From Saccharothrix violaceirubra (GTDB taxonomy: Bacteria; Actinomycetota; Actinomycetes; Mycobacteriales; Pseudonocardiaceae), in assembly GCF_014203755.1 (NCBI RefSeq), contig NZ_JACHJS010000001.1, positions 3,844,001 through 3,908,000 on the forward strand: a stretch of DNA of 64,000 nucleotides, written 5' to 3'. The notes below the pieces were generated by a model. That model was not told the DNA's origin. It saw nothing but the letters and a program-made list of their open reading frames with translations, and made no database searches. Within the stretch, counting starts at the first letter, position 1. Every line of letters begins with the position of its first letter. Below are positions 2,027-56,265 of the stretch, piece by piece. The position numbers and the translations under genes were made by a program.

Positions 2027-2029
2027 CCC

Positions 2030-3408: not shown

Positions 3409-3409
3409 C

Positions 3410-9450: not shown

Positions 9451-9463
9451 GGAAGCAGAAAAA

Positions 9464-9486
9464 CTCGCCGAGTTCCAATCGGCGAG
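9464..9486. other. Inverted repeat just upstream of cas3
   Basis: Perfect 8-bp arms CTCGCCGA and TCGGCGAG separated by 7 nt. It lies directly upstream of the chosen cas3 ATG, so it would sit in the 5' leader or be an operator. Function unknown. Confidence 0.45.
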
Positions 9487-9509
9487 ATCGATCCGGGGAT
9501 TTTCCAATC

Positions 9510-9530
9510 GACCCGGAATTCATCCGGGTC
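9510..9530. promoter_or_regulatory. Operator-like inverted repeat upstream of the cas operon
   Basis: Perfect 8-bp arms GACCCGGA and TCCGGGTC around a 5-nt AT-rich centre. It is located between the cas3 start and the terminator of the cupin gene, where the cas promoter must be. The short spacer and palindromic arms are typical of a repressor site; no regulator is known from the sequence. Confidence 0.4.
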
Positions 9531-9552
9531 GAATTCACCGGTCCGGGGTACC

Positions 9553-9586
9553 GCCCCGCCGGTCGACCCGAGACGACCGGCGGGGC
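9553..9586 (-). terminator. Hairpin terminator of the cupin gene
   Basis: Perfect 13-bp GC-rich stem (arms GCCCCGCCGGTCG and CGACCGGCGGGGC) with an 8-nt loop, starting 8 bases after the cupin stop on the minus strand. It separates that gene from the cas operon that follows on the same strand. Confidence 0.75.
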
Positions 9587-9593
9587 GGGGCCG

Positions 9594-10058
9594 TCACGGC
9601 GCGGTCGGACCGGTGGCCGAGCCGTAGTTGGGGCTCAGCGACAGGGCGCTGAAGCGGAACGGCCGGTCGACCCGGGTGAAGCCGAGCGGGCAGTGGCGCG
9701 TGCCGGCGGGCAGGTAGACCGAACCGCTGGTCGTGATCGTGTGGCGGACGCCCTCGATGTCCAGGTAGATCTCCGCGCCGAGGTCGTCCACGTCGTTCGG
9801 GTCGTTGCCGTGCCAGATCAGGACCTCGTCGTAGTCGTGCACGTGCTCCTTGACCCACTGCACGGGCTCGGAGCACTCGTTGATCCACGTGTAGGTCAGG
9901 TGGACCTTGCTCTCGGGCACGTCCTTCGACCGCATCAGGGCGAGCGCCGCGCCCACGTTGTCCGGGTCGGGCAGGCCCGCTTCGCCGCCCTCGTTGACGA
10001 GGTCGTCGAGGCAGCTCTGCATCTTCCTCACGAACAGGTGCTCGTACGGGCTGGTCAT
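9594..10058 (-). CDS. Cupin-fold protein of unknown function
   Basis: A 154-residue soluble protein. The start is ATG 10058, preceded by an overlapping GAGGAAGAGGG ribosome site; the extra six in-frame codons upstream are the ribosome site itself. The centre carries a cupin-like pattern: K-E-H-V-H-D-Y-D-E-V-L-I-W-H-G near residue 75 resembles cupin motif 1 (HxH...E) and VYLPAGTRHCPLGF near residue 120 resembles motif 2 (P-x-G-x-x-H). It could therefore bind a metal. Single-gene unit with its own hairpin terminator, between the cas operon and a divergent secreted protein. No substrate can be named. Confidence 0.65.
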   Translation of the reverse strand: MTSPYEHLFVRKMQSCLDDLVNEGGEAGLPDPDNVGAALALMRSKDVPESKVHLTYTWINECSEPVQWVKEHVHDYDEVLIWHGNDPNDVDDLGAEIYLDIEGVRHTITTSGSVYLPAGTRHCPLGFTRVDRPFRFSALSLSPNYGSATGPTAP

Positions 10059-10287
10059 CCGTCCCTCTTCCTCCACGTCGTCCCACTCGGCCGCTCCCGC
10101 CCGAGGCTAATCGGCTCCCCACGATCGGAAAGTCACTCAGCTCCGTCCCGGCCGGCACTCCACGTCCTTTCTCGACGGTTCCGTCCCACCGGATGGACCG
10201 ATGCGCCTACGGCGAAAGCACCACTACCGAAGGCGGACGGCGGACATTCCCGACGTCACGCCCTCTTCGGACGGTCGCTCGTGGACA

Positions 10288-10314
10288 TTCGACCGGCGAC
10301 GCCTGTGCTACTTT
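10288..10314 (+). promoter_or_regulatory. Possible promoter for a leaderless transcript
   Basis: TTCGAC at 10288 and TACTTT at 10309 are separated by 15 nt, a little short. The ATG of the next gene follows 7 bases after the -10-like box and has no ribosome site, as in leaderless actinobacterial messages. Weak evidence. Confidence 0.3.
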
Positions 10315-10321
10315 TCGCGGA

Positions 10322-10966
10322 ATGCGTTTAACTTCACCGCACAGTGACACTCCGGTCACCTTCGGCAAACTGTTCACCGCGTTCGCCCTCGGGCTCGCAC
10401 TCGTCCTTCTGGGGTCCGGCACGATCGCCCGGGCGGCGGCGCATGACGCCCGCCGGAACTGCGAGTGCTCGACCCCGTCGATCGACCGCTACCAGCAGTG
10501 GCTGGCCTCGGGCGAGGGCACGACCGTGCCGGCCACCGGCAGTCTGCTCGTCCGCGAGGGCCGCGGTTACGCCGCGAAGGTCCAGTTCCTCAAGGACGAA
10601 TGGCACGTGGTCGTCGTGTGGCTGGGCAACAAATTCGAATCCCAGGCCGACCTGTCCAAGTCGTCGGGTTTCTGGCTGACCTACAGCGCCACCGACGACC
10701 TCTACCTCCAGTTGCGCCCGGCGTCGCACTGGAGCGGTGGCGACAAATGGCTCGTGAAGATCCCGGCGACCGGGGGCAAGCGCGTCCAGAAATTCGTCGC
10801 CTTCACCGCCGACCAGTGGACGTGGCTGCCGGAACTGGGCAAGCCGGCGTACTCCTTCGAATCGGCGCTGACCGACGCCCGCGGTTTCGTGTTCGTGGGC
10901 AAGACCCCGAACCGGATCGACTTCCGGGGCCTGCGCATCGACCGCTACCAGCCGCCGTGCGTGTGA
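10322..10966 (+). CDS. Secreted or membrane-anchored protein of unknown function
   Basis: A 214-residue protein with a hydrophobic segment at about residues 18-37 (FALGLALVLLGSG...) followed by A-R-A-A-A, which reads as a signal peptide with a cleavage site. The mature part has a short Cys-rich start (C-E-C), alternating strand-like segments and many Trp/Tyr residues (WHVVVVWLGN, YLQLRPASHW, WTWLPEL), suggesting a beta-sandwich that may bind a carbohydrate or another ligand. No catalytic motif is visible. The start at 10322 has no ribosome site and may be leaderless. The gene stands alone, followed by a perfect terminator hairpin. Confidence 0.6.
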   Translation: MRLTSPHSDTPVTFGKLFTAFALGLALVLLGSGTIARAAAHDARRNCECSTPSIDRYQQWLASGEGTTVPATGSLLVREGRGYAAKVQFLKDEWHVVVVWLGNKFESQADLSKSSGFWLTYSATDDLYLQLRPASHWSGGDKWLVKIPATGGKRVQKFVAFTADQWTWLPELGKPAYSFESALTDARGFVFVGKTPNRIDFRGLRIDRYQPPCV

Positions 10967-10974
10967 GCTGAGCA

Positions 10975-11009
10975 CCGGGTGGTGGCGGTCGGGTACCGCC
11001 ACCACCCGG
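10975..11009 (+). terminator. Hairpin terminator of the secreted protein gene
   Basis: Perfect 15-bp stem (arms CCGGGTGGTGGCGGT and ACCGCCACCACCCGG) with a 5-nt loop, 8 bases after the stop codon. The following 190 bases to the KAP gene stop hold nothing recognisable. Confidence 0.8.
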
Positions 11010-11198
11010 GGATCGCCGGAATCCGGCACGGCGGACCGTTGCCGCGCGTGGCCCACGTCGACGGACTCGCCGTCGCCCGCAGGCGGCGGGAACCCGCTCG
11101 CCGACAGCAGCCGGTGGTGTGCCCGATGCGGTCCTTTGCCGGGCTTCACACCGAGTTCGTGCCGAAGGACCGGACCGCGCCGGGGAGGCCGCCCGGCA

Positions 11199-13520
11199 CT
11201 ACCGCCCGCCGGTCCGCAACCCGACCAGGTGGTTCCAGGCCAGGGTGGTCTCGTCCGCCATCCACCGACGCGCGTCGGCGATCCCGATCGCCACCGCACC
11301 GGTCCCCGACTCCTGGTCGACCTCCTGGCCGAACAGGTCCACGACCGTCTGGCAGAACAGCAGATAGCACGCCGCCTCGGCGCTCAGCTCGGTGATCGGT
11401 GTCGGATCGCCGTCGGCGCCGCGCCGCATCGCCTCGGCGATCGGCAACAGGTCGTCGACATCGGCGGACGCGGCCTGGCGCAGTGACTCCAGGAGGTCTC
11501 GCAGCCTTCCGGTCGTCTCGGCCGTATCCCGCGCGACCTGGCGGGCCGTGTGCGTGAACGCACGGATCTTGAGGTCGAGATCGCGACGCACCAGCAGCCG
11601 GGCCGCGTCGGCCAGGTGCCAGGGCCCCTTCTGCCGTTTGTGCGCGTCGTGCAGGGCGATGGCCGTGCGCCCGAGGTCACGCGGCAGGCCGCCGGACAGG
11701 CAGTGGCACAGCCACACGAACGGTTCCGGGATGCCGAGGGCACGCCGCGCGAGCCAGTCCCGCGACTCGTCCAGCGTGAACGGCCGCACGTCGATCATGG
11801 TGGTGAACGCGCTGTCGAACGCGTCCCGCGCCGGGATGCCGCGACGTTCGAACGCGGTGAGCGCGTCATCGGACATCGACACCAGGAACAGGCAGTGCCG
11901 GACGCCGAACACGCCCTTGATCTCGTTGAGGAAGCGCTGGGCCTCCTCCGGATCACCGATCTTGTCGACCTCGTCGATCGCGATGGTGACGCCGCTGAGC
12001 ACGCCGTGCCCGTCGACGAGCACGTCCACGACCAACGCCAGGAAGTCCCGGAGGCGGTCGACGACCTCGGGGTGGGTCCACGGTTGTTCGGTCTTCGCCA
12101 GGGACTTCGACCACCCCGCTTCCGTACCGATGGGCGCGCTGACCTTGCCGGACCAGCCCGACGTGTGCGTCTGGAGGAACCTGATCGTGCGCAGGTGCTG
12201 TTCCGCCACCTTGTGGAGCGCCTCGATCGGCGGGCCATGCCGCCTCGGACCCGGGGTCCTCTTGAGGCGTCGCCGCAGCGACGACACCAGCCAGGCCAGA
12301 AGCGGCCACCCCGTGAACAGCCACAGCGACCATGCCGCGCGCAACGCGAACCACAGGGTCAGCAGGGCCGCCACCACGCGCAGGTCGCCGGCGGACAGTC
12401 CGGCCCTGACGTTCGGGACGAGGTCGGCGGCGAACGCCGTCGCTTCCCGCACCACCACCCGCACATCACCGGTCCGGCCCCAGGCCAGGCCGGCGAAGCC
12501 GAGGGCGAACAGTGTGCGCACCGCCCAGCGGAGAACGTTGCCCAGGACGCGGGCGATCCGCGCCCTCGTCAGCCGTCGGGCGTACTCGCGCTTCCACAGC
12601 CGCCGCGTCTCGCTGCCGCTCCGGTCGTCGCGGTCGGCGAGCAGGTCCAGCACCGCCCGGCAGACGCACGCGTGCAGGTGCAGGACGAAGTCGCGCGCGT
12701 CGTAGCGGACCGGTGCACTGGTCAAGACGCCCAGCATCGGCTGACGACGCTCGTGCGTGAACTTGTTGTCCAACGCGTTCCTGATGATGGTGCTCTTCCC
12801 GACACCCCGGGTACCGGCCAGCCCCACCGCGCCCGGCAGGCGCCTGTTGACCTCTCGCTCACAAGCCTGGACCGCCGGCGTCTCCACCAGCGGTCCCTCG
12901 CCGGCGGGCAGCGAGAGGCTGTCCGCGTTGCGCAGTTCCAGCACGACGTCGAACGACGGTGTCGTCTGCGAACTCAGCCACTTCCGCAGCTCCGGGCGGA
13001 CCACCTCGTCCCGGAGCTTCTGGCGCAGGTCCCACCGCTCGCCGACGCCATCGGCGGTCAGGAACGCCAGCCGCACGGCCCAGCGGATGCCGTCCACGAA
13101 CTCCGTCGGCAACCCGATCATGGCGCAGACGTAGCAGATCGCCAGCACCAACGCGGTCACGCCCACGAACACGAGGTCCGGCATGCTCCCGCCGAACACC
13201 GCGAGCAGGCCGATCCAGCCGAGGAAGGCCGCCGGGGCGACGATCAGCGACCGGCGTTCCACCTTCGTCGGCTGCCAGTCCAGCGGCCACCACTCCGGTT
13301 TGTCGCGGCGGTGCCGTTCGACGTCCGCGTCCGCGGTCGCCACCGGCGCGGACAGCTCGTACGCCTGCTCCACCACCGACGGGGTTCGCGACACCTTCGT
13401 GACGACGTCGGCGGGATTGAGCTTGAGCCGGTCGATCTCCTCGTCGAACTCGTCCTCGTCCAGGACCTTCCAGAGCGCCTCGATCAACTCGCTCGACACC
13501 CGGGCCTGATGTCGCGTCAT
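11199..13520 (-). CDS. KAP-family P-loop NTPase with membrane segments
   Basis: A 773-residue protein starting at an ATG with a clear ribosome site (GGGAGGGA). Walker A is GTRGVGKST near residue 235-244 and Walker B is IAIDEVDKI near residue 510. The 270 residues between them contain at least two hydrophobic segments (around 330-350 and 385-410), and two more lie at about 92-140. Membrane helices inserted between Walker A and Walker B are the defining feature of KAP NTPases (Kidins220/ARMS, PifA), some of which act in phage exclusion. It has an N-terminal cytoplasmic helix region and a C-terminal helical domain. Single gene; its partners, if any, are not evident. A defence role is inferred from family and neighbourhood. 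Confidence 0.8.
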   Translation of the reverse strand: MTRHQARVSSELIEALWKVLDEDEFDEEIDRLKLNPADVVTKVSRTPSVVEQAYELSAPVATADADVERHRRDKPEWWPLDWQPTKVERRSLIVAPAAFLGWIGLLAVFGGSMPDLVFVGVTALVLAICYVCAMIGLPTEFVDGIRWAVRLAFLTADGVGERWDLRQKLRDEVVRPELRKWLSSQTTPSFDVVLELRNADSLSLPAGEGPLVETPAVQACEREVNRRLPGAVGLAGTRGVGKSTIIRNALDNKFTHERRQPMLGVLTSAPVRYDARDFVLHLHACVCRAVLDLLADRDDRSGSETRRLWKREYARRLTRARIARVLGNVLRWAVRTLFALGFAGLAWGRTGDVRVVVREATAFAADLVPNVRAGLSAGDLRVVAALLTLWFALRAAWSLWLFTGWPLLAWLVSSLRRRLKRTPGPRRHGPPIEALHKVAEQHLRTIRFLQTHTSGWSGKVSAPIGTEAGWSKSLAKTEQPWTHPEVVDRLRDFLALVVDVLVDGHGVLSGVTIAIDEVDKIGDPEEAQRFLNEIKGVFGVRHCLFLVSMSDDALTAFERRGIPARDAFDSAFTTMIDVRPFTLDESRDWLARRALGIPEPFVWLCHCLSGGLPRDLGRTAIALHDAHKRQKGPWHLADAARLLVRRDLDLKIRAFTHTARQVARDTAETTGRLRDLLESLRQAASADVDDLLPIAEAMRRGADGDPTPITELSAEAACYLLFCQTVVDLFGQEVDQESGTGAVAIGIADARRWMADETTLAWNHLVGLRTGGR

Positions 13521-13917
13521 GTGTCCCTCCCACCGGTGGCGGCGAGGATGGTGCCGTAGCGGACCGCGTCTCCGCCTCCGGTCCGGTCCGCTTCACCCGG
13601 TCGGCCGCCCCGGAAGCCAGGCGACCCGACTCCGGGGTCGACGGATCGAGGCGCGGCGGCGTCCGATCGGGAGTAGTCAACCAACCGAAGGAACCCTCGC
13701 AACGACCTGGCCGGACCCGCGCGTCGTCGCGCGGTCCGTATGTCGCACCCGGCCCCGGAAACGACTCCGCGACGCGCCCATGTCCCGCGACCGCACCGAC
13801 TTCGGGTACCGCCGTTCGTCCTACCACCCGCGAGGGAGCGCTCCCGGACCGATCTTGACCGGGGCTCGGTGCGGTCGTGAGGATGCGGGCCGTGTCGCCG
13901 CACGCCGAAGAACGGAC
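13521..13917. other. 397-bp intergenic region between divergent genes
   Basis: No convincing gene. It must hold the promoters of the KAP gene (minus) and of the GH3 gene (plus). A near-perfect inverted repeat lies at 13713-13737 (GGACC/GGTCC with GCGCG/CGCGC inner arms and a TCGT loop) and could be an operator or a short hairpin. The open frame that runs through this region into GH3 lacks coding character. Confidence 0.5.
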
Positions 13918-19530: not shown

Positions 19531-20940
19531 GTGCGGCGCGAGCACGTCGACGATCTGGTGGTCGTGATCCCAGGAATTCTGGGCAGTCGTCTGGCGGTGG
19601 ACGGCAAAGAGGTGTGGGGGACCTCGCCGGGCGCGGCCTTACGCGCGATCAGGACGTTCGCCGGTTCCATCAAGGATTTGCGACTCCCGAAGGACATCGG
19701 CGACGGACACCCCGGAGACGGCGTGGTGCCCACCGGGCTGTTGCCGTCCCTGCATGCGCTTCCCGGCGTGTGGCCGGTGGTCGACGGCTACGGCAGCTTG
19801 ATCGACTGGTTGGAACGCACCTTCACACTGCGCCGCGCACTCCCCGGCGACGGACCGGACACGGCCGTGAATCTGGTCGAGTTCGCTTACGACTGGCGGT
19901 TGTCGTGCCGCTACAACGCCCACCTGCTGTCGATCCGCGTCGACAAGGCACTCGGCCGGTGGCGAACCCGTCACCCGGACGCGCAGGTGCGGTTGATCTG
20001 CCACTCCATGGGCGGCCTGATCGCCCGGTACTGGGTCGAGTGCCTCGGCGGTGCCGAGGTCACGCGGCTGCTCGTCACGTTGGGCACGCCGCACCGCAGG
20101 TCGATCGGCGCGTTGGCGTCCCTGGTCAACGGGGACCGGGTGGCCGGTGTGGACCTGACCGCGTTCAGCCGGAGCCTGCCCTCACTGCACCAGCTCACCC
20201 CCGACTACGCGTGCATCGAAAGCCCGGACGGCCTGCGCACGACCCATGAGCTGTCGACCACGCTGGACGGCGTCGACGCGAACCTGCTCGCGGACGCCCG
20301 ACGCTTCCACGACGAGATCCGCACCGCCGCCCTGGGCCGGGTGGCCGCCGGCGGCTCCGACCGGCTGTGCCGCCCGGTCGTCGGGGTACGCCAGCCCACC
20401 CCGACGACGGCGGCCGTGGTGGACGGTCGCCTGCGGTTGATCGAGACCATCGAGGGCAAGGACGAAGGCGGCGACGGCCGGGTGCCGAGGTTCGCGGCCT
20501 ACCCGGCGGAGGTCTCCCTCGACGACCCCGCCGCCCGGTCGTCTTTCGCCAACCACGGGGCGATCAAGCGGCACGCCGGGGTGCGGGGAGACCTGTACGA
20601 CGCACTCGCCCCGGAGCCGGGCGTCTACCGGGGAGCAGAGCCCGGCCATCCGCTCGGCGTGCGGGTGCCGGAGTTCCTGGCGCCGGGCGAGCCGCTGCGG
20701 ATCGAGGCCGAGGCCGTCACCGGGGGCCGGGGATCGGACCGGCTCGCCGTCCGGGCCGTGGTCGAACCCGAGGACGGGCGGGCTGTCACACGCGTCCTGC
20801 GCAACCTCGGGGACGGCCGGTACGAGGCGACGGTCGACGGCCTCTCCCCCGGTGCCTACGCCGTGTCCGTGCACGCGTCCAGTGACCAGCCGTCGGACGC
20901 AGTGACCGCGATGACCCTCGTTCTCGAAGGCGACGAATGA
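19531..20940 (+). CDS. LCAT-like alpha/beta-hydrolase (lipase) of a conflict operon
   Basis: A 469-residue protein. The start is GTG 19531, behind GGGAGGG; codons upstream to 19441 lack homology-like sequence. The N-terminus has a strand and oxyanion-type loop (VVVIPGILGSRL) typical of LCAT/PDAT-like acyltransferases and lipases. The nucleophile elbow is C-H-S-M-G-G (Ser159), with Cys in place of the first Gly. A late SFANHGAIKRH segment could supply the catalytic His. The last 90 residues form an Ig-like strand-rich domain. The stop overlaps the start of the caspase-NACHT-TPR gene (ATGA), so the two are coupled. The likely role is a phospholipase or esterase effector controlled by the neighbour; substrate not shown. 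Confidence 0.8.
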   Translation: MRREHVDDLVVVIPGILGSRLAVDGKEVWGTSPGAALRAIRTFAGSIKDLRLPKDIGDGHPGDGVVPTGLLPSLHALPGVWPVVDGYGSLIDWLERTFTLRRALPGDGPDTAVNLVEFAYDWRLSCRYNAHLLSIRVDKALGRWRTRHPDAQVRLICHSMGGLIARYWVECLGGAEVTRLLVTLGTPHRRSIGALASLVNGDRVAGVDLTAFSRSLPSLHQLTPDYACIESPDGLRTTHELSTTLDGVDANLLADARRFHDEIRTAALGRVAAGGSDRLCRPVVGVRQPTPTTAAVVDGRLRLIETIEGKDEGGDGRVPRFAAYPAEVSLDDPAARSSFANHGAIKRHAGVRGDLYDALAPEPGVYRGAEPGHPLGVRVPEFLAPGEPLRIEAEAVTGGRGSDRLAVRAVVEPEDGRAVTRVLRNLGDGRYEATVDGLSPGAYAVSVHASSDQPSDAVTAMTLVLEGDE

Positions 20941-23900
20941 CCGACAACACCCCGAAAACAAACGGCACGTTCGTGGCCGTCGTCCTGGACGAGTACCGGG
21001 ACCCGAAGTTCCCGAAGCTGGAAGGAGCGGTCACCCAGGTCAACGACCTCGCCACCGCGCTCACCGCTTACGGCTACGAATCTCAGGTCGTCGTACGGCC
21101 ACTGCTGGTCGGCGTGTCCGTTGAACTCGACCGCTGGTCGGAGGACTGGTCAGCGCGTGGCCAAGGCGGGCCCGCGGTCGTGGTGTGGTCCGGTCACGCC
21201 GAGGGAAAGGACGGAAAACCCCTACGGCTCGCCGCCTTCGACACCGCGAGAGGGACGACGAACCCGAATAAGTACTACTCCCCCGTCAGCCTCGCCTCCC
21301 ACAGCCTGGAGAGCGGCGCCGACCAGGTCCTGATCCTCCTCGACACTTGTCATTCCGGCGCCGGCGCGATTCCGGCCCTGGACCAGGCTCTCGACCTCCT
21401 GAAGGACCAGACCCTGCCTGAGGGTCGCGTCGCCTGGTTCGGCGTGCTCGCGTCCTGCCAGGCGGACGAGCGGGCCGAGGGTGGACGCGGTCGGCTGCTG
21501 GAAGCTGTGCTGCATCTGCTCACGGAAGGCCCAAGGGGTTCCGAGGAGTACCGGCACGAATGGAGCGTGCGCAACGAGGGCATCACCGGAGCAACGCTCA
21601 TCAAGGCCGTACTGGGTGACTGGCAGGACGGCGCCCAGCGGGCCGTGGACGTGTCCACGGGCCAGCCCCGAGCCATGTTCCGCAATCCGCTCTGGCGCCC
21701 CAAGGCCGGCGAAGCGCTCGTCGAGCACCTCGTCCTCGCCGCCAAGGGCATCGACCCCACCGAGGAGGGCTGGTTCTTCACCGGTCGACAGCGGGCGTTG
21801 CGGCAGATCGTGGACTGGTTGGCCGCCAAGAAGGCGGGCATGCTCCTGCTCACCGGCAGCGCCGGCGTCGGGAAGTCCGCAGTCGCCGGACGGATCGCGG
21901 CCCTGTCCGATGCCGCAGAACGGGCCGACCTCATGGCCCACGCCCCACTCACGGCCGAAGACCCGGACCCCGGCGACGGCAGCGTGGATGCGGCCATCCA
22001 CCTGCGCGGCATGACTGTGCAGAGCCTCGCCAAGGACCTGGCCGACCGGCTGGGGCTCGCGGTGCCAAGGACGCCAGCCGACCTGATCGCCCAACTCGAA
22101 CGGGCAGACGCCACGACGCGCCAAGTGCTCGTCCTCGACGGCCTCGACGAAGCCGCACCCGGCGAGGCGACCCCGATCGCGGAGCAGCTCCTTGTTCCGC
22201 TCAGCCGACTGTGTACCGTCCTGCTCGCGTCCCGTGATCGTCCGTTCCAACCGCACCAGGAACCGGGTGAGGCGCTGGATTCCGCGCTCACCCGCACCGT
22301 AGGCGCGGCGGTCCACGTTCTCGACCTCGATCAGGAACAGGACACGGCTTCGGACATCGCCACCTACGTGCGCGACCGCCTCCTCGCCGACGATGTCGCC
22401 CCGGACAAAGCAGCGGAAATCGCTCCGGTCCTGGCCGCGCGGGCGAGTACCTCAAGTGGCGGGTTCCTCTTCGCCCGCATCGTCGCCTCCCGACTCGCCC
22501 ACACTCTCGCGGCCGACCCCGATTTGCCGTGGCGGGAAAGGATTCCCGCCGGTATCGAGGAAGCCTTGGCTGCAGACCTCGCCACCGCCCCGGCCAGACT
22601 CCGTGACGGCCGGGAACTTTCGGGCGCCGCCCACGACCTGCTCACCGCGCTCGCCTGGGCTGGTGGCGCCGGAATCCCCGCACACGGGGTCTGGCAGGCC
22701 GTCGCTCAGGCCGTCGGCGGTCGCGACACCACATACGAACCGGAAGACATCGACTGGGTGCTTCGGCAGTACGGCCGCTACATCGTCGAGGACAGCGACG
22801 GTTATCAGGCCGTCTACCGCCTCTACCACCGCGAACTGGTCACCCACCTGCGTACCCGCACGCCTGCCGCTGTGCCCGTCGCGATCATTCGAGCGCTGGT
22901 CACCTTGGCCCTTGGGCAGACCGACAACGGCACCACCCCGACGCAGGCGAACCCTTACCTGAGGCAGCACCTGGCCAGTCACGCCGTCGAGGCCAGCGGT
23001 CCCGGTGTCACTGCACTCCGCGAACTGGTCGAACTCAACCCCGACGCCTACCTCCCCAACCTCGCAGGCGCCCTCAACAACCTCGCCAACCAACTCGCCG
23101 GAATCGGACGCCGACAAGAAGCCCTCACAACAGCACAAGAAGCCGTCACCACCTACCGCAACCTGGTCGAACTCAACCCCGACGCCTACCTCCCCAACCT
23201 CGCCACGTCACTCAACAACCTCGCCAACCAACTCGCCGGAATCGGACGCCGACAAGAAGCCCTCACAACAGCACAAGAAGCCGTCACCACCTACCGCAAC
23301 CTGGTCGAACTCAACCCCGACGCCTACCTCCCCAACCTCGCGATGTCTCTCCACAACCTCGCCGTGATGATGTCGGGAATCGGACGCCGACAAGAAGCCC
23401 TCGCGCCAGCACAAGAAGCCGTCACCACCTACCGCAACCTGGTCGAACTCAACCCCGACGCCTACCTCCCCAACCTCGCCGCCGCCCTCATCAACCTCGC
23501 CGACCAACTCGCCGGAATCGGACGCCGACAAGAAGCCCTCGCACCAGCACAAGAAGCCGTCACCACCTACCGCAACCTGGTCGAACTCAACCCCGACGCC
23601 TACCTCCCCAACCTCGCCATGTCCCTCAACAACCTCGCCGCGATGATGTCGGGAATCGGACGCCGACAAGAAGCCCTCGCACCAGCACAAGAAGCCGTCC
23701 GACTCCGCCGCAACCTGGTCGAACTCAACCCCGACGCCTACCTCCCCGACCTCGCCATGTCCCTCAACAACCTCGCCGCGATGATGTCGGGAATCGGACG
23801 CCGACAAGAAGCCCTCGCACCAGCACAAGAAGCCGTCCGACTCCGCCGCAACCTGGTCGAACTCAACCCCGACGCCTACCTCCCCGACCTCGCCATGTCC

Positions 23901-25565
23901 CTCAACAACCTCGCCAACCACCTCTCGGAAGTCGGACGCCGACAAGAAGCCCTCACACCAGCACAAGAAGCCGTCACCACCTACCGCAACCTGGTCGAAC
24001 TCAACCCCGACGCCTACCTCCCCAACCTCGCAGGCGCCCTCACCAACCTCGCCAACCAACTCTCGGAAGTCGGACGCCGACAAGAAGCCCTCACACCAGC
24101 ACAAGAAGCCGTCCGACTCCGCCGCAACCTGGTCGAACTCAACCCCGACGCCTACCTCCCCGACCTCGCAGGCGCCCTCAACAACCTCGCCAACCAACTC
24201 TCGGAAGTCGGACGCCGACAAGAAGCCCTCACAACAGCACAAGAAGCCGTCACCACCTACCGCAACCTGGTCGAACTCAACCCCGACGCCTACCTCCCCG
24301 ACCTCGCAGGCGCCCTCAACAACGTCGCCAACCGGCTCGCCGGAATCGGACGCCAACAAGAAGCCCTCACAACAGCACAAGAAGCCGTCACCACCTACCG
24401 CAACCTGGTCGAACTCAACCCCGACGCCTACCTCCCCAACCTCGCCATGTCCCTCAACAACCTCGCCGCGATGATGTCGGGAATCGGACGCCGACAAGAA
24501 GCCGTGCAGATCTACGACGACATCGTCACCAAATCATCCGGTCGGCCTGGTCTAGCAGCCAAAGTTTCCTATCACAGGGCCGTCTTTCTGCTCGAGACCG
24601 ACCAAGGCGAGGGCGTCACCGAACTTTGTCGGCTACTGTCCTCAACCAAGCCAGAGGACAACGACACCGCCTTCCAAATCCGCCGCAGCCTGCGGCAGAT
24701 CGCACAAGCCGATCACGAAGCGAGGAAGTTGGTCGTGCGGGCGCACGCCGACCATTTCCCTTCATCGTCCGAAGCACCCTCATGGCTGGACATAACCGAC
24801 GCAGACCTTCAACTCACTGTCGACTGGCTAAGCGCCCTCACCTGGCGCGACTCGCGGGATTTCATCACTACACACCCGGAACTCCTGGAACCACCTGCCC
24901 AGGCCGCACTTCGCGAGTGGTCCACGCTCGGGCCAGCCAACTTCCACCTCGCACTGCTGGAACGCCTGGTGTCCGGCGACCCGGTGGACACCGTGTACCG
25001 GTCGCTGGTGCTCCCCGAGATCCTGATCGAGTGGATGAGCACTGCTAGCGAAGGCTGGGCCGCCTCTGCCGCATACCTGACCGACCACGCGGAAGATCTG
25101 CTCACGCCCGACGCGGACGCATCGTTGGCCGCCATCGACGACGCGGGGCTGGTGGCCGATGTCCACCGGGCACTCCTGGCAGTGGCCTTGGATGACGGTA
25201 TCGACGCAGCCTACGAACTCCTGCAGAATCGACAGGTATTGCATGCCCGGGTCCAAAAGGCATTGGCCGCAGCGGATGGAGCGACGCTCCGCCTGCTCTC
25301 CGCCATCGAAGTCGGGGTGTACGGCGACGTCTGGGTCGGAGCCGTGCACTGGTCGACCGCGTGGGTCCTCGACGACCCGGAAGCCAGCGACGAAACCGCT
25401 CACGCGCCGGAAGCCGTAGAGGTCCTGCGGGAAGCCGTCCAAGCGAAAGCTCCCGACGGGGACGAGCGCAACCGGATGGTGGCCGAACTCGCCGCCCTCA
25501 TGGCGGCGCGACCCGCTCGAGCCACCGCGCTCGGCGACATCCTCCAGGCGGTCCTGGCCACGTGA
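20937..25565 (+). CDS. Caspase-NACHT-TPR protein, NLR-like conflict/immune regulator
   Basis: A 1542-residue protein in three parts. Residues 1-220 are a caspase/metacaspase-type peptidase with the dyad His87 (W-S-G-H-A-E-G) and Cys138 (L-L-D-T-C-H-S-G). Residues 280-650 are a STAND/NACHT-type NTPase: Walker A GSAGVGKS near residue 306-314, Walker B V-L-V-L-D-G-L-D-E-A. Residues about 697-1190 are eleven 46-residue TPR-type repeats (consensus around L-N-P-D-A-Y-L-P and G-R-R-Q-E-A-L), nearly identical in DNA as well. A helical C-terminal domain of about 350 residues follows. The architecture resembles predicted bacterial NLR-type and caspase-TPR conflict systems: repeats sense, NTPase switches, caspase cleaves. 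The gene overlaps the lipase upstream (ATGA) and the CHAT gene downstream (GTGA). Confidence 0.88.
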   Translation: MTDNTPKTNGTFVAVVLDEYRDPKFPKLEGAVTQVNDLATALTAYGYESQVVVRPLLVGVSVELDRWSEDWSARGQGGPAVVVWSGHAEGKDGKPLRLAAFDTARGTTNPNKYYSPVSLASHSLESGADQVLILLDTCHSGAGAIPALDQALDLLKDQTLPEGRVAWFGVLASCQADERAEGGRGRLLEAVLHLLTEGPRGSEEYRHEWSVRNEGITGATLIKAVLGDWQDGAQRAVDVSTGQPRAMFRNPLWRPKAGEALVEHLVLAAKGIDPTEEGWFFTGRQRALRQIVDWLAAKKAGMLLLTGSAGVGKSAVAGRIAALSDAAERADLMAHAPLTAEDPDPGDGSVDAAIHLRGMTVQSLAKDLADRLGLAVPRTPADLIAQLERADATTRQVLVLDGLDEAAPGEATPIAEQLLVPLSRLCTVLLASRDRPFQPHQEPGEALDSALTRTVGAAVHVLDLDQEQDTASDIATYVRDRLLADDVAPDKAAEIAPVLAARASTSSGGFLFARIVASRLAHTLAADPDLPWRERIPAGIEEALAADLATAPARLRDGRELSGAAHDLLTALAWAGGAGIPAHGVWQAVAQAVGGRDTTYEPEDIDWVLRQYGRYIVEDSDGYQAVYRLYHRELVTHLRTRTPAAVPVAIIRALVTLALGQTDNGTTPTQANPYLRQHLASHAVEASGPGVTALRELVELNPDAYLPNLAGALNNLANQLAGIGRRQEALTTAQEAVTTYRNLVELNPDAYLPNLATSLNNLANQLAGIGRRQEALTTAQEAVTTYRNLVELNPDAYLPNLAMSLHNLAVMMSGIGRRQEALAPAQEAVTTYRNLVELNPDAYLPNLAAALINLADQLAGIGRRQEALAPAQEAVTTYRNLVELNPDAYLPNLAMSLNNLAAMMSGIGRRQEALAPAQEAVRLRRNLVELNPDAYLPDLAMSLNNLAAMMSGIGRRQEALAPAQEAVRLRRNLVELNPDAYLPDLAMSLNNLANHLSEVGRRQEALTPAQEAVTTYRNLVELNPDAYLPNLAGALTNLANQLSEVGRRQEALTPAQEAVRLRRNLVELNPDAYLPDLAGALNNLANQLSEVGRRQEALTTAQEAVTTYRNLVELNPDAYLPDLAGALNNVANRLAGIGRQQEALTTAQEAVTTYRNLVELNPDAYLPNLAMSLNNLAAMMSGIGRRQEAVQIYDDIVTKSSGRPGLAAKVSYHRAVFLLETDQGEGVTELCRLLSSTKPEDNDTAFQIRRSLRQIAQADHEARKLVVRAHADHFPSSSEAPSWLDITDADLQLTVDWLSALTWRDSRDFITTHPELLEPPAQAALREWSTLGPANFHLALLERLVSGDPVDTVYRSLVLPEILIEWMSTASEGWAASAAYLTDHAEDLLTPDADASLAAIDDAGLVADVHRALLAVALDDGIDAAYELLQNRQVLHARVQKALAAADGATLRLLSAIEVGVYGDVWVGAVHWSTAWVLDDPEASDETAHAPEAVEVLREAVQAKAPDGDERNRMVAELAALMAARPARATALGDILQAVLAT
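23025..24504 (+). repeat. Tandem 138-bp coding repeats (11 copies, last one incomplete)
   Basis: Units begin every 138 bases at 23025, 23163, 23301 and so on to 24405, each coding one 46-residue TPR-like repeat. Copies are near-identical in DNA, including silent positions. Differences cluster in a few codons: after the conserved N-L-A (AGA/ATS/AMS), at N-Q-L-A-G-I versus A-M-M-S-G-I versus N-H-L-S-E-V, and T-T-Y versus R-L-R at the unit end. This indicates recent duplication or gene conversion within the array. Confidence 0.95.
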
Positions 25566-26884
25566 TCCGCCCCAGCGGCATCCTGATGCTGTCAGCAGCA
25601 CGGCCGGGCGGACCGGACACCGGCGCGGAGCAGCGGGAAGTCGAGCAGGTGATCCGCGCGTCCCGCTACCGTGACGGCCTGGTCGTGCACGCCGCGCAGG
25701 CGGTACGAGGTGGGGACATCCTCGGCCACCTGCTGGACCACGAGCCGACCGTGTTGCACTTCTCCGGGCACGCAAGCGACCGGGGTCTGCGGGTCCTCAC
25801 CGACGACGGCGGTGACGCGCCGCTGGTCACCCGAGGGCTGGTCGACCTGCTGGCCGAGGTCGGCAAGTCCTTACGGCTTGTCGTGTTGAACGCGTGCGGC
25901 ACCGACGCCGTGGCGCGGGAGTTGGCCGTGGTCACCGGGTGCGCGATCGGCTATCCCGCGCGGGTGGCCGATCGGACGGCGATCACGTTCGCCGCCCACT
26001 TCTACCGGTGTGTCGGGTCGGGCATGGCCGTGGGCAACGCGTTCCGGGCCGCAGTGGCGGTCGCCCGGATGTATGGGGCCGACGAAGGCGAGATCCCCGT
26101 CCTGCACGTCGCACCCGAGGTCAACGAGGACGCGCACCACCTCCTGCACCCGGCCCACTTCGTGCCCGATCGCGTGTCCGGGCGGCTTCCCAACGCCACC
26201 GCCTTGGTCGCGCGTCAGTCCGTGGCCAAGCAGCGTTTCACGTTCCTGGCCACGGGTCTGACCGGCTCTGAGTCGGAATTACGGGCAGGGCTCACCGCCA
26301 TGCGGATGGACGTCCAGTGGATGCGCATCGAGGATTCGCGGTCACGGCACGCGGTCGAAGTCCAGGGCGCGGGCGCTGTGCCGCCACGCCGCACCCACGG
26401 GCACGAGCAGCGCCGCGTAGACCACAGCCGGGACGGCGACCCAGCCGTGCAGGTGCTGGGCGGCCTTCACCAGCATCAACGCGATGTAGGCGAGATGGAC
26501 GGCACTGACCCCGCCGTACGCGATGAGGGCTGCGACCCGGTGGGGCCGCGGAGCGGTGTGGACGTTGGTGGCCCGTTCGGTCGCGGTGGTGCCGACCCGG
26601 TCCCGGTCGAGGTCGGGGACGTCGGCGAGCAGTCGGCGTTCAAGGGTGAGGATGGAGCGGGCCCGGACGGCGGCCAGGTTGAGCAGTTGGGAGTGGAAGG
26701 CGGCGACGCAGATCAGCGGGAACGGCAGGAGCGCGATGGCCCAGCCGAGCAGGTCGAGCTTGTCGTAGAAGGCGATCGTGCCGACGAGGTAGGTGGCGGC
26801 GACGCCCATGGTGGCGAGGCCGACGTTGAGCGTGGTCGCCCGGTCGGCGCGGTCGGACTGGTAGACGGCGATCAGCGCCGGTAA
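25562..26884 (+). CDS. CHAT-domain (caspase-like) protein; true 3' end uncertain
   Basis: The start is GTG 25562, overlapping the stop of the caspase-NACHT-TPR gene by 4 nt (GTGA). Residues 1-250 form a CHAT peptidase domain: His70 in LHFSGHASDRG and Cys112 in VVLNACGTD are the expected dyad. Residues about 210-256 read as a short extension. From about base 26342 the frame stays open for 540 bases but runs antisense to a convincing membrane-protein gene, and the translated sequence there is low-complexity and unlike protein. Either the gene truly overlaps its convergent neighbour or it lost its original 3' end and reads on by chance. The role is inferred as second protease or partner of the caspase-NACHT-TPR protein. 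Confidence 0.7.
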   Translation: MIRPSGILMLSAARPGGPDTGAEQREVEQVIRASRYRDGLVVHAAQAVRGGDILGHLLDHEPTVLHFSGHASDRGLRVLTDDGGDAPLVTRGLVDLLAEVGKSLRLVVLNACGTDAVARELAVVTGCAIGYPARVADRTAITFAAHFYRCVGSGMAVGNAFRAAVAVARMYGADEGEIPVLHVAPEVNEDAHHLLHPAHFVPDRVSGRLPNATALVARQSVAKQRFTFLATGLTGSESELRAGLTAMRMDVQWMRIEDSRSRHAVEVQGAGAVPPRRTHGHEQRRVDHSRDGDPAVQVLGGLHQHQRDVGEMDGTDPAVRDEGCDPVGPRSGVDVGGPFGRGGADPVPVEVGDVGEQSAFKGEDGAGPDGGQVEQLGVEGGDADQRERQERDGPAEQVELVVEGDRADEVGGGDAHGGEADVERGRPVGAVGLVDGDQRR

Positions 26885-26911
26885 GCGGTCGGGCTCGGTC
26901 GTGGTGTTCAT
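26342..26911 (-). CDS. Four-helix membrane protein of unknown function
   Basis: A 189-residue protein with four hydrophobic segments: two in residues 28-75 (GVAATYLVGTIAF and WAIALLPFPLICVAAF) and two in residues 125-175 (LIAYGGVSAVHLAYIALML and VAVPAVVYAALLVPVG). A charged cytoplasmic linker (R-S-I-L-T-L-E-R-R) separates the pairs. The ATG at 26911 has no strong ribosome site; a perfect palindrome GTGTCGACAC lies at 26915-26924, just upstream. It is convergent with, and overlaps, the open frame of the CHAT gene. Small multi-helix proteins often serve as membrane effectors next to conflict genes, but nothing in the sequence proves that here. Confidence 0.7.
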   Translation of the reverse strand: MNTTTEPDRLPALIAVYQSDRADRATTLNVGLATMGVAATYLVGTIAFYDKLDLLGWAIALLPFPLICVAAFHSQLLNLAAVRARSILTLERRLLADVPDLDRDRVGTTATERATNVHTAPRPHRVAALIAYGGVSAVHLAYIALMLVKAAQHLHGWVAVPAVVYAALLVPVGAAWRHSARALDFDRVP

Positions 26912-27020: not shown

Positions 27021-28583
27021 TCAAATCGGCAGTCCGATGTGGAATCGCAGCAGACGGGTATCGGTCCCGAAGATCTCCTCGACGTCGGCAAGCAGGGCGG
27101 ACAGCTCGGCTACGCGCGAGGCAGGGGGAACGGCGTACGCGGTCGCGGCCTCGTGCGCGAGCCAGTGGGACAGGTCCGCCCGTGCGGTGGCGTGCAGGGG
27201 GTGCCCGGGGTCGGCGAGCAGGTCGAGGTCGACGCCGATCCGCGTCCACAGGCCGTGGGCGCGCAAGAGCCGGTAGGCGGCCCGCTGGACGTGCGGTGGC
27301 CGCTCCGGTCGCAGCAACGGCCGCAGGAAGTCCTCGTCCAGGCCGTCCGCGTGCCGGAGCAGGGACAGCACGACCTGCCGCGTCACCGAGGACACCGGAT
27401 CGGTCAGCAGGGGCAGGAGCAGCCCCGGTGTGGTCTCGCCGAGCCGTCGCAGCGCACGGACAGTCACCGCACGCCCCCGAGACGAAGGGTGTCCCAGCCA
27501 TTCCCGGAGCGGCTCGACGTCGACGTGGGCGCCGGTCTCCCCAAGTCCCGCGATCACCGTGGGCAGCGGCGGACGCCGGTCGAGCAGTGCCCGATAGCGC
27601 GCGGCCGGGTCCGTACCGGCGCGGCGCAGGAGGGCTTGCGCGGTGGCGCGCACGACGGCACCGGTGTCGACCAGTGCCGCGTCGACGGCCGCCATCTCCC
27701 CCGCGGCGGCCAAGGCGCGAACGGCCTCGGCGCGCACCATGGCCGTTCCGGCGGCAAGCAGTCGACGGGGCACGTCGCGATCACCGGCGGCGCGGATGGC
27801 CGCTTCCGCACACAACACACGGATCGACGGGTCGGGGCCGGTTTCGGCCGTGCGCACCAGCCGGTCGAGGTGGAGTCGGCCGGCGGCCAGGCCGATCGTG
27901 TGCGCGAGTCGCCGGACGCCGCGGTCTTCGGCCGCCAACGCGGCCTCCAGTGCCTCGGGCGGGCCGTCGCGGAGCACGTCCGCCACAGCGTCGAGCAACC
28001 AGTCGCCGTCCCTGCGCGCATGCACGGCCCGCGCGACGGGTGCCGCCAAAGCGATCGCCTCGGTCGGCGCACGGTCGAGTTGTCGAGCGCACGCCCGACG
28101 TGCGGCGGCGCGGACCTCGGGCACCCAGTCCGCCGCCCGCAGCGCCAGGACGGGCACCCCGCTGACGTTGTCCCGTGAACCAAGCACGGTCACGGCCGCT
28201 TCCCGCACGAACCCGTCCGGGTGGCAGGCGGCGGCGATCAGGTCCAACGGCCCAGCCCGACCGGCGACCAGGCGGTGGGCCGCCACGTCGGTCGACGTGA
28301 GGATGCCCCACGGCAGGCTCCGGGCGGCGGCGTCCACCGTCAGCCATAGGCGCGGGCCCGCCTCGGCCAGCCGCCGGACGACCAGGTCCGCATCGGCGTG
28401 CCGGCCGATCGGGGACAGCAGCGACCAGAGTTCGCGGGCGGCGTCGAAATCCCCGCTCCCGGCACCGGAGAGCGCCCGGTCGAGCGAGTCCCGGTCGGGC
28501 AGGCCCGCCGGCGGCTCGTCGGGAGGCGAGGCAAGCCGTCCACGCAGTCGATCACCAATGGCATCCACGGCGCCATCGTCCAC
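27021..28583 (-). CDS. HEAT-repeat-like helical protein
   Basis: A 520-residue protein made almost wholly of paired Ala/Leu/Arg-rich helices with recurrent patterns such as V-R-E-A-A-V-T-V-L-G, V-R-A-A-A-R-R-A, V-R-A-E-A-V-R-A-L-A and R-A-V-T-V-R-A-L-R-R-L-G, typical of HEAT/armadillo-type solenoids. No enzyme motif, signal peptide or membrane helix is seen. The start is placed at GTG 28583, the first start after a TAAAAT box; GTG 28568 is possible. The open frame upstream of this overlaps the aminotransferase and is a shadow. Such solenoids are protein-interaction scaffolds. It is on the same strand as the downstream membrane protein (109-nt gap), so the two may be co-transcribed. Confidence 0.7.
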   Translation of the reverse strand: MDDGAVDAIGDRLRGRLASPPDEPPAGLPDRDSLDRALSGAGSGDFDAARELWSLLSPIGRHADADLVVRRLAEAGPRLWLTVDAAARSLPWGILTSTDVAAHRLVAGRAGPLDLIAAACHPDGFVREAAVTVLGSRDNVSGVPVLALRAADWVPEVRAAARRACARQLDRAPTEAIALAAPVARAVHARRDGDWLLDAVADVLRDGPPEALEAALAAEDRGVRRLAHTIGLAAGRLHLDRLVRTAETGPDPSIRVLCAEAAIRAAGDRDVPRRLLAAGTAMVRAEAVRALAAAGEMAAVDAALVDTGAVVRATAQALLRRAGTDPAARYRALLDRRPPLPTVIAGLGETGAHVDVEPLREWLGHPSSRGRAVTVRALRRLGETTPGLLLPLLTDPVSSVTRQVVLSLLRHADGLDEDFLRPLLRPERPPHVQRAAYRLLRAHGLWTRIGVDLDLLADPGHPLHATARADLSHWLAHEAATAYAVPPASRVAELSALLADVEEIFGTDTRLLRFHIGLPI

Positions 28584-28606
28584 ACCCGCACGGTCGCGGG
28601 CACACG

Positions 28607-28612
28607 ATTTTA
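28607..28612 (-). promoter_or_regulatory. Possible -10 box of the HEAT-repeat gene
   Basis: TAAAAT on the minus strand, the only A/T-rich hexamer nearby, 24 nt before GTG 28583 and just after the upstream operon's terminator. No convincing -35 box, since that position falls in the terminator hairpin. Confidence 0.35.
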
Positions 28613-28617
28613 GAAGG

Positions 28618-28646
28618 CCGGACCCCGCCGCGAAGGCGGGGTCCGG
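28618..28646 (-). terminator. Terminator of the polyketide alkaloid operon
   Basis: Perfect 12-bp stem (arms CCGGACCCCGCC and GGCGGGGTCCGG) with a 5-nt loop, 8 bases after the aminotransferase stop, followed on the minus strand by CTTCTAAAAT. It marks the end of the operon that starts at the first PKS gene. Confidence 0.85.
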
Positions 28647-28654
28647 CTCCGGGG

Positions 28655-30217
28655 TCAGGCCGTGAAGCCGTGTTCCGGCTGGGTGCGGAGGATCTCGGCC
28701 GCCCCGCGCAGCGCGCGGTCCAGCCGCCCGATCTCCTCCTCCGTCAACAGCACCGACGGCTCGAAGCGGAGGGTGGTCACCGCGCTGGCGGTCGGGAAGG
28801 TGCGGATGTCGTGCGCCTGCAACAGGTAGCCCGCGATCGCGTAGCCCAGGAACGGCGCGTTCACGCGGATCGCCTCGGACGTGGCAGTGTCCTGCGCGGC
28901 GAACTCCAACCCCAGCATCAGGCCCTTGCCCCGGACGTCGACCACCACGTCCGGGTAGTCCGCGCGCACCCCTTCCAAAACAGCGGTCAGCCGCTCGCCC
29001 AGCTCGGCCGCCTTCCGGTACGCCCGGCCGTCCTCGGACTCCAGCAGCTCCAGGACGGTCGACGCGATGTGGCACGAGAACGCGTCCTTCGCGAACGTGG
29101 AGCTGTGCACGAGTTCGAACTCCGGCCGGTACCGGGACTCGCGGACCAGCAGCACCGACGCCTTCGCCACGCCGCCGCCCAGGCTCTTGGCCAGGGTGTA
29201 GTAGTCGCCGCGCAGCCCGATGAGCGTGCTCGCCAGGAACGCGCCCGACCGGCCCATCCCGCTCTGGATCTCGTCCACCACGACGGGAGCACCCACCGAG
29301 GCCGCCGCCTCCTGGATCTCCGCGGCCAGCTCGGCCGAGACGACCCGGATGCCGCCCTCGCCCTGGATCGGCTCGACGACGAACGCGGCGATCAGCGGGA
29401 AGTCGTGCTCGACCACCCGCACCTCGCCGCCCTCGACCACGATGTCCAGCACGGACGCGCGCTCGCCGTCCACCATGTCCTTGACCGCGCCCGGCTGGTC
29501 CAGCGGCACGAACCGCGCCTGCGCCGCCAGCGCCGAGAACGGGGTCCGGTAGTCGGCGTTGTGGGTCAACTGGACGCTGCCCGCGAGCTTGCCGTGGAAC
29601 CCGCCCTCCAGCGTCACGAACACCGGCGGACGGGCGGCGACGGCCGCGTTGTGCGCGGCGATCGCGGTCAGCAGGCCCGCCAACCCCTCCTCGGGGACAC
29701 TGCCCGCCTTCTCGTAGGCGCTGGGCGCCACCGAGGTCACCGTCGTCGCCAGGTTCGCCTCGATCCCGGCCAGCAGGTCGCGGGCCCGGAAGCCCCGCTC
29801 CAGCTCGGCGTGCTTGATGGCCGCCTCGATGGCCTCGGCGCCGGTGTTGGCGAAGATCGTCGCGAACGCCTCGTCCTCGCCCAGCTCGCGCCGGATGATC
29901 CGGTTGAGCCGGTTGGCCACGTCGTTGGCATAGGGGTGCCGGGAGAACTGGGCGTGGATGGGCGTGCCGGCGGCGAGCAGTTCCTGGGCACGCGCCACGA
30001 CGGTCGGGTGGTTGTGGCCCAGGAGCAACGAGCCGTAGCCACCCGCGAGGTCGAGCACGGCCACCTCGCTCCCGTCCTCGGCGAGCCGGTAGATCGTGTT
30101 GCCCTCGGCCCGGACGTACTCGACGTCGAGGCCGACGGTGCCCAGCCAGCCGCGTAGGGTCGGTTCGGCCAGTTCGCGGTCGGTGTGGGCGGCGGTCATG
30201 GGTTGGACGGCGGTCAT
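28655..30217 (-). CDS. Class III PLP-dependent aminotransferase (polyketide aldehyde aminotransferase)
   Basis: A 520-residue fold-type I aminotransferase. The start is ATG 30217, behind GAGGAGG; longer readings overlap the accE-like gene. PLP-site features are present: N-T-G-A-E-A-I-E-A-A phosphate loop, VVVDEIQSGMGR with the Asp that contacts the pyridine nitrogen, and the Schiff-base Lys in LAKSLGGG. Class III enzymes transfer amino groups to terminal aldehydes. In coelimycin-type pathways such an enzyme (CpkG) aminates the aldehyde released by the PKS reductase domain. Here it is the last gene of the operon that ends its PKS with a reductase domain, so the same job is inferred: C1 aldehyde to amine, followed by ring closure to a cyclic imine. 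Confidence 0.9.
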   Translation of the reverse strand: MTAVQPMTAAHTDRELAEPTLRGWLGTVGLDVEYVRAEGNTIYRLAEDGSEVAVLDLAGGYGSLLLGHNHPTVVARAQELLAAGTPIHAQFSRHPYANDVANRLNRIIRRELGEDEAFATIFANTGAEAIEAAIKHAELERGFRARDLLAGIEANLATTVTSVAPSAYEKAGSVPEEGLAGLLTAIAAHNAAVAARPPVFVTLEGGFHGKLAGSVQLTHNADYRTPFSALAAQARFVPLDQPGAVKDMVDGERASVLDIVVEGGEVRVVEHDFPLIAAFVVEPIQGEGGIRVVSAELAAEIQEAAASVGAPVVVDEIQSGMGRSGAFLASTLIGLRGDYYTLAKSLGGGVAKASVLLVRESRYRPEFELVHSSTFAKDAFSCHIASTVLELLESEDGRAYRKAAELGERLTAVLEGVRADYPDVVVDVRGKGLMLGLEFAAQDTATSEAIRVNAPFLGYAIAGYLLQAHDIRTFPTASAVTTLRFEPSVLLTEEEIGRLDRALRGAAEILRTQPEHGFTA

Positions 30218-30234
30218 GGGTTCCTCCTCGGTGA

Positions 30235-30390
30235 TCAGTTCCACGCGCCGGGCGCGCGGTAGGGTCGCGCCGTCCACAGGGGCGCGGACGCGGCGGGGGT
30301 CTCATCGGGTTCTTCCGCGCGCGGCAAGGCGAGCAGGGCGACGGTCAGCGCCGCCAGTTCCTCGTCGTCGGGCGCACCGTGCACGATCAC
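30235..30390 (-). CDS. Acyl-CoA carboxylase epsilon subunit (AccE/PccE-like)
   Basis: A 51-residue protein starting at GTG 30390, overlapping the beta-subunit stop by 4 nt (GTGA). It shows the short epsilon pattern: a V-x-x-G-x-P-D-D-E-E-L-A-A-L-T-V-A-L-L helix at the N-terminus and a terminal W-x-x-R-P-Y-R-x-P-G-A-W motif. In actinomycetes the epsilon subunit binds the biotinylated alpha-beta carboxylase complex and raises its activity. It is 17 nt from the aminotransferase start. Confidence 0.85.
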   Translation of the reverse strand: MIVHGAPDDEELAALTVALLALPRAEEPDETPAASAPLWTARPYRAPGAWN

Positions 30391-43040: not shown

Positions 43041-43044
43041 GTCA

Positions 43045-56265
<13,221 letters not shown>

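Follow-up and report, generated by a model that had tools for sequence, protein, structure and literature searches.

A recurrent NLR-like operon pairing a lipase-fold hydrolase with a caspase-NACHT-TPR protein in Saccharothrix violaceirubra

The 64,000-nucleotide (nt) window analysed here (from the soil actinomycete Saccharothrix violaceirubra, assembly GCF_014203755.1, contig NZ_JACHJS010000001.1, positions 3,844,001 to 3,908,000 of the forward strand) contains three consecutive open reading frames (ORFs) at 19531-26884. Both junctions are 4-nt overlaps (ATGA and GTGA), as described in an earlier note on this DNA. Encoded are an LCAT-like hydrolase, a protein joining a caspase domain, a NACHT-like NTPase and tetratricopeptide repeats (TPRs), and a CHAT protease-like protein (Table 1). 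Judged by domains and gene order, the core of this locus is a two-gene module composed of the LCAT/lysosomal-phospholipase-like hydrolase and the caspase-NACHT-TPR protein. The operon is real and recurrent, NLR-like, and founded on an already known kind of pairing. We regard it as rather probable that the locus is a caspase-lipase death or defence operon, triggered by infection or by non-self.

Domain composition of the core pair

The caspase-NACHT-TPR protein of 1542 residues, proposed in the earlier note, was confirmed by profile matches along its length. Its NTPase matches AAA_22 (27.6 bits; cut-off 27) and, more weakly, AAA_16 and NPHP3_N, and displays the motifs GSAGVGKS and VLVLDGLDE. 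The TPR region scores 171.7 bits with TPR_10. The caspase domain matches the NCBIfam profile caspase_w_EACC1 at 33 bits, under its cut-off of 140, with His87 and Cys138 present; of the 57 partner ORFs, the window's included, 53 retain the Cys motif. Effector, STAND NTPase and repeat sensor are united in one chain, as is characteristic of bacterial NLR-like/STAND immune proteins.

The LCAT-like nature of the hydrolase, also suggested earlier, agrees with a PF02450 match above the gathering cut-off (25 versus 21 bits), the triad motifs Ser159, Asp315 and His342, and a predicted LCAT/lysosomal phospholipase A2 fold. We take the residues named here for the hydrolase, the caspase and CHAT to be catalytic from general knowledge of these families. 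The start of the hydrolase is uncertain, since the frame is already open from 19441, and no signal peptide was recognised in it by eye. The LCAT fold (residues 5-363) is followed by a low-confidence linker (364-370) and an Ig-like C-terminal domain (371-469). In its predicted fold the protein resembles lysosomal phospholipase A2/LCAT and the effector Tle4 (PDB 4x97, 6mvd, 4r1d); it differs from them in sequence (16-19% identity), in the additional Ig-like domain and in having a receptor partner.

Table 1. Features of the operon and the adjacent gene (window coordinates)
Feature	Position	Strand	Basis
LCAT/lysosomal-phospholipase-A2-fold hydrolase	19531..20940	+	Pfam, motifs, predicted fold
1542-aa receptor: caspase, NACHT-like STAND NTPase, TPR array, C-terminal region	20937..25565	+	profile matches
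Caspase domain, aa 15-198	20979..21530	+	NCBIfam match, His87/Cys138
NACHT-like NTPase core, aa 281-413	21777..22175	+	Walker A and B motifs
Tandem TPR array, 138-bp / 46-aa units	23018..24503	+	Tandem Repeats Finder, motif count
CHAT protease-like gene, native part, about 258-260 aa	25562..26341	+	profiles, codon-position GC, relatives' lengths
Spurious run-on of CHAT ORF	26342..26884	+	antisense to membrane-protein gene
189-aa membrane protein	26342..26911	-	codon-position GC, relatives, model

Distribution of the core pair

Among named genomes, the best 80 of at least 413 relatives of the hydrolase were considered, and a locus was scored as paired if a caspase, STAND, TPR or VMAP match lay within 600 nt of the hydrolase. 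By this definition 59 loci were paired, one of them by TPR only (L213) and another by VMAP (L223), 17 were solo and four were cut. Adjacency of the homologues, which the earlier note had proposed to check, is found in these 59 pairs and, for all three genes, in six loci besides the window. Partners are located up- or downstream of the hydrolase, mostly overlapping or abutting it, with three on the opposite strand, and their repeats are of the TPR or WD40 type. Because relatives keep the gene order and often the overlap too, the arrangement appears to go beyond chance. The phyla represented include Actinomycetota, Cyanobacteriota, Pseudomonadota, Acidobacteriota and Chloroflexota.

A survey of 150 genomes of the family Pseudonocardiaceae revealed 20 strong hydrolase matches (at least 58 bits) besides the window's own. 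A caspase-NACHT match was located within about 3 kb of 15 of them. The remaining hydrolases adjoin a CHAT-AAA protein together with an NB-ARC-TPR or NACHT-like protein (G147, G093) or an AAA protein (G016), or have nothing recognised nearby (G080, G042). A single hydrolase-caspase module would appear to serve several different receptors.

In an 81-row hydrolase tree, the window sequence is sister to that of Streptomyces sp. SA15 (100/99) within a mostly Streptomyces clade. This position and the presence of 73-74% identical relatives in Streptomyces suggest a horizontal gain.

One further locus contains a STAND-TPR protein beside a hydrolase of the same family (L102:2216-8961). By eye, its N-terminus resembles a transglutaminase-type thiol protease, replacing the caspase; no Pfam match was obtained for this N-terminal part.

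The TPR array

Tandem Repeats Finder detected 10.8 copies in the array with 91% match, and a motif count gave 11 near-identical units. The ten full units share a mean pairwise DNA identity of 0.887, and the encoded residue is altered at 17 of 18 variable codons. With the same program, a tandem array was detected in 19 of 45 homologous coding sequences (window included) and none in the other 26.

The most variable, groove-facing TPR positions are 2, 5, 9, 12, 13, 33 and 34 (Magliery and Regan, PMC1261162; this and the PMC sources below are cited from parts of their text). In six near-identical arrays, with units numbered according to the TPR consensus, the highest entropy falls at positions 2, 9, 10 and 31, followed by 13 and 5; at position 12 it is low. 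Mean entropy at positions 2, 5, 9, 12 and 13 is 1.04 versus 0.49 overall (permutation p 0.003); positions 33-34 were excluded since the units are longer than 34 residues. On these sequence grounds, the variation of the array is centred on predicted ligand-groove positions. Bacterial receptors of immune type may thus have repeats in which variation affects the binding positions and large parts of each unit remain identical in DNA sequence.

The CHAT gene

The ORF starting at 25562 scores 22.8 bits with the CHAT profile PF12770, just below the cut-off of 24, and matches the PADLOC profile SAVED_CHAT (5e-8); His70 and Cys112 are present. The earlier note had extended this gene to 26884 and overlooked a fourth gene, encoding a membrane protein on the opposite strand, to which the ORF runs antisense from 26342. 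The GC content at the three codon positions of the CHAT frame is 0.75/0.49/0.88 up to about 26341 and 0.93/0.49/0.74 beyond, while the minus-strand ORF shows 0.73/0.49/0.94. The trio CHATs of relatives comprise 229-266 amino acids (L149, L154, L250, L251, L257), and that of L249 would comprise about 246 if its start is set at 3683 (the ORF itself, 494). At its C-terminal end, the Actinocrinis CHAT can be aligned to window residues up to about 258. A 440-residue CHAT protein was therefore rejected, as the final ~540 nt of the ORF lie opposite a genuine gene and the relatives are shorter. The codon-position GC, the relatives' lengths and the Actinocrinis alignment point to a native protein of about 258 residues ending near 26335, the stop of which is missing, so that the frame reads through the facing gene.

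In the best-80 set, the order hydrolase, caspase-NACHT-TPR, CHAT is shared by Actinocrinis puniceicyclus (L149) and Streptomyces djakartensis (L154); most hydrolase-caspase pairs lack CHAT. In 295 Streptomyces genomes, 13 hydrolases of at least 400 bits were found: five in trios (L249, L250, L251, L253, L257), six in pairs without CHAT, one cut, and one solo with an internal stop. The two sets overlap (L253 is the L154 record; L252, L254, L255, L256 and L261 are repeats), so their counts are not additive. Seven distinct trio loci are known, namely the five from Streptomyces, that of Actinocrinis and the window. With the starts that were called, the second and third genes overlap by 4 nt in five of the seven, and L249 joins them if the chosen start is used; in L250, CHAT begins 26 nt past the preceding stop. 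The view that CHAT is only sporadic was rejected, since five of 13 close Streptomyces loci carry the trio. That view had been based on CHAT relatives, retrieved by CHAT searches, that lay away from the hydrolase in seven family and 12 class loci taken from longer lists; gene calling was weak in the low-GC loci.

In all five Streptomyces trios the position of the CHAT histidine is occupied by arginine (SGRG, AGRG, SARG) and the cysteine is retained, whereas the window and Actinocrinis keep SGHA. Because the catalytic histidine is replaced, CHAT is probably a pseudo-protease in Streptomyces; the window protein is possibly still a protease. The 'two proteases' of the earlier note are accordingly compatible with the window, which keeps His70 and Cys112, but not with five of the seven trio copies.

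By profile, the closest known proteins are SAVED-CHAT proteases (PADLOC SAVED_CHAT; PDB 8tl0, listed as 'CHAT domain-containing protein' and presumably a SAVED protein). In contrast to these, the window protein matches the CHAT portion only (profile positions 329-463 of 498) and its ORF begins with CHAT; the Streptomyces copies also lack the histidine.

The membrane protein beside CHAT

Relatives of the 189-residue membrane protein are present in three of 24 other congeners (69%, 62% and 32%). Its profile matches 25 of 390 Pseudonocardiaceae genomes searched, with 13 matches above 140 bits. Five of these 13 adjoin the same hydrolase family (G160, G301, G309, G299, G304:C112), and three of the hydrolase-adjacent copies belong to VMAP-type loci, where MoxR and vWA genes are present (L130, L132, L134). 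The window's own copy sits at the end of CHAT, and G152 adjoins CHAT after a TPR protein, its contig beginning inside the TPR gene. Three others adjoin a P-loop NTPase and a patatin-like phospholipase (Patatin over cut-off in G298 and G140:C21; PLA2_B in G105). No partner was recognised for the last three (G304:C80, G294, G214). The protein was not found in the best-80 hydrolase loci nor in 18 Streptomyces loci, and occurs in three of 394 class genomes including its own; named Streptomyces homologues nonetheless exist. These neighbourhoods and this distribution suggest a lineage-limited partner of lipases of two folds.

No Pfam match was obtained for the window protein even at E 1, and across 42 relatives the best match was DUF2417 (3 members, E 0.0021). 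A family without a Pfam entry would thus travel with lipases of two folds. The predicted structure is a long-helix bundle (mean predicted local distance difference test score, 88).

The domain also occurs within longer ORFs (L140, L141). A distant version follows a HATPase_c (histidine-kinase-type ATPase) domain in L104:9775-11535, a different use of the family. The combination of membrane protein, P-loop NTPase and patatin-like phospholipase in L126, L127 and L131 is possibly a separate defence system.

Comparison with known systems

The STAND anti-phage proteins bNACHT and Avs consist of an N-terminal effector, a STAND NTPase and a C-terminal repeat sensor. The window receptor has the same domain order, to which a separate hydrolase partner is added.

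Wherever a VMAP ternary system includes a caspase, a gene for an alpha/beta-hydrolase invariably lies next to it (PMC7159879; Kaur et al., 2020), as in the window. The VMAP loci L223 and L130 contain hydrolases of the window's family, and the vWA protein of L130 bears a homologous caspase-NACHT-TPR module. In contrast to the ternary system, the window receptor is a single caspase-NACHT-TPR chain, and Pfam revealed no MoxR, vWA or VMAP genes among the scanned neighbours on both sides. The earlier note did not know the exact trio as a described system; we found no paper describing it in the open-licence PubMed Central literature searched, but the hydrolase-caspase pairing is in print for the VMAP systems.

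Fungal NLRs with a sesB-like lipase, a NACHT or NB-ARC domain and TPRs have near-identical repeats with variable groove residues, and a role as NLR effectors has been proposed for the sesB lipases (Dyrka et al., 2014; PMC4986451). Lipase-NTPase-TPR coupling and near-identical repeats are common to these proteins and the window, a likeness of architecture. The fungal lipase is fused to the NTPase, with no caspase listed in the part of that source cited, whereas the window hydrolase is separate and its receptor has a caspase.

The canu caspases activate by cleavage a separately encoded enzyme, a metallo-beta-lactamase-fold nuclease (PMC12799240). A caspase with a separately encoded partner in a TPR context is likewise present here, but the partner is a lipase-fold hydrolase, and no gene for such a nuclease was recognised among the scanned neighbours. 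The two-gene EACC1-caspase system is not represented either: the caspase match falls far short of the profile cut-off, and the 5' gene encodes a hydrolase instead of the EACC1 single-transmembrane protein.

Proposed mechanism and alternatives

STAND multimers switch on fused effectors. Laying the STAND, canu, sesB and VMAP precedents on the anatomy of the operon, we infer its sensing, oligomerisation, cleavage, lipid substrate and cell outcome as follows. The TPR array would bind a fast-changing ligand, either a phage protein or a product of a non-self cell, and the NACHT-like domain would assemble a multimer using nucleoside triphosphate. The multimer would draw the fused caspase domains together and turn them on, and the caspase would act with the partner hydrolase, which it would most likely cleave or release. 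The hydrolase would then attack membrane lipids, a target favoured because the predicted fold is that of a phospholipase, and the cell would die or stop growing. CHAT and the membrane protein may act as an accessory regulator or membrane docking factor.

Several points weigh against this scheme. A shared predicted fold does not prove a lipid substrate. No pair-specific cleavage site could be recognised in the linker of the hydrolase (Arg367 in 76% of pairs versus 88% of solos), which mildly disfavours a simple linker cleavage. A narrower expression for the caspase His pattern matched in 44 of 57 partner ORFs. The genes recognised among the scanned neighbours code for a glycosidase, an amidase, a methyltransferase, a mycothiol transferase, a HEAT protein and an aminotransferase, with no defence genes. 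Finally, some hydrolases live without a caspase, given the 17 solo-scored loci, at least one of which was wrongly scored.

Instead of phage defence, the locus could serve allorecognition or developmental cell death, the array telling self from non-self strains or reading an internal cue. The groove-centred variation and near-identical repeats match those of fungal NLRs, including the sesB-lipase/NB-ARC/TPR type (PMC4986451), and most loci are from Actinomycetota; their occurrence also in Lamprocystis, Burkholderiales and Bryobacterales metagenome-assembled genomes speaks against this alternative, which we consider unlikely. We likewise doubt that the caspase kills directly via many host proteins, with the hydrolase and CHAT being regulators or acting on a signal lipid. 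Such a role would fit the well-kept Cys motif and the missing cleavage site, but the hydrolase triad is conserved at least as well, so its catalysis matters. Quite improbable is a housekeeping lipase merely neighbouring an immune receptor: the earlier note's concern that the lipase usually stands alone applies to 17 of the 80 loci, among them L165, beside genes for a 2-oxoacid dehydrogenase E2 and a dihydrolipoamide-dehydrogenase-like (lipoyl-enzyme) protein, and L196, L200 and L218, which share one Intrasporangiaceae neighbourhood, whereas pairs dominate, overlap or abut across phyla and persist when the order flips, the solo-scored L215 faces a caspase gene missed by the query set (L215:11389-12375; PF00656, 76 bits), and solos are scattered among paired clades with eight label changes versus a shuffled mean of 18.9 (midpoint root only; direction root-dependent).

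Beyond the favoured caspase-lipase operon, it is conceivable, if speculative, that the locus represents in bacteria what lipase-NLR allorecognition is in fungi. The rapidly reshuffling TPR array of the caspase-NACHT receptor would read the identity of ligands with its groove residues, the partner phospholipase would be released onto the membrane with the help of the dedicated membrane protein, and CHAT would be a pseudo-protease adaptor in Streptomyces. The equally tentative idea of one lipase module plugged into VMAP, TPR-STAND and WD40-STAND receptors belongs to the same proposal. If true, lipase-armed NLR logic would be common to bacteria and fungi, and the groove residues would offer a direct handle on what the receptors detect. 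In the literature searched, we found no description of a CHAT third gene with a decayed active site, of a lipase-linked membrane protein, or of groove-focused near-identical receptor repeats.

Other genes in the window

Type I-E CRISPR-Cas genes (Cas7e, Cas8e, Cas3e) are located at 3410-9507 on the minus strand, about 10 kb upstream of the operon; no CRISPR repeat array was seen in window positions 1-13600. A minus-strand ORF of 1094 amino acids with HEAT repeats (27021-30305) is overlapped in another frame by an aminotransferase class III gene (28655-30277; PF00202, 201.7 bits), and the extent of the HEAT frame is uncertain. Two very long minus-strand ORFs at 38034-56265 (1668 and 4406 amino acids) perhaps belong to a large biosynthetic cluster.
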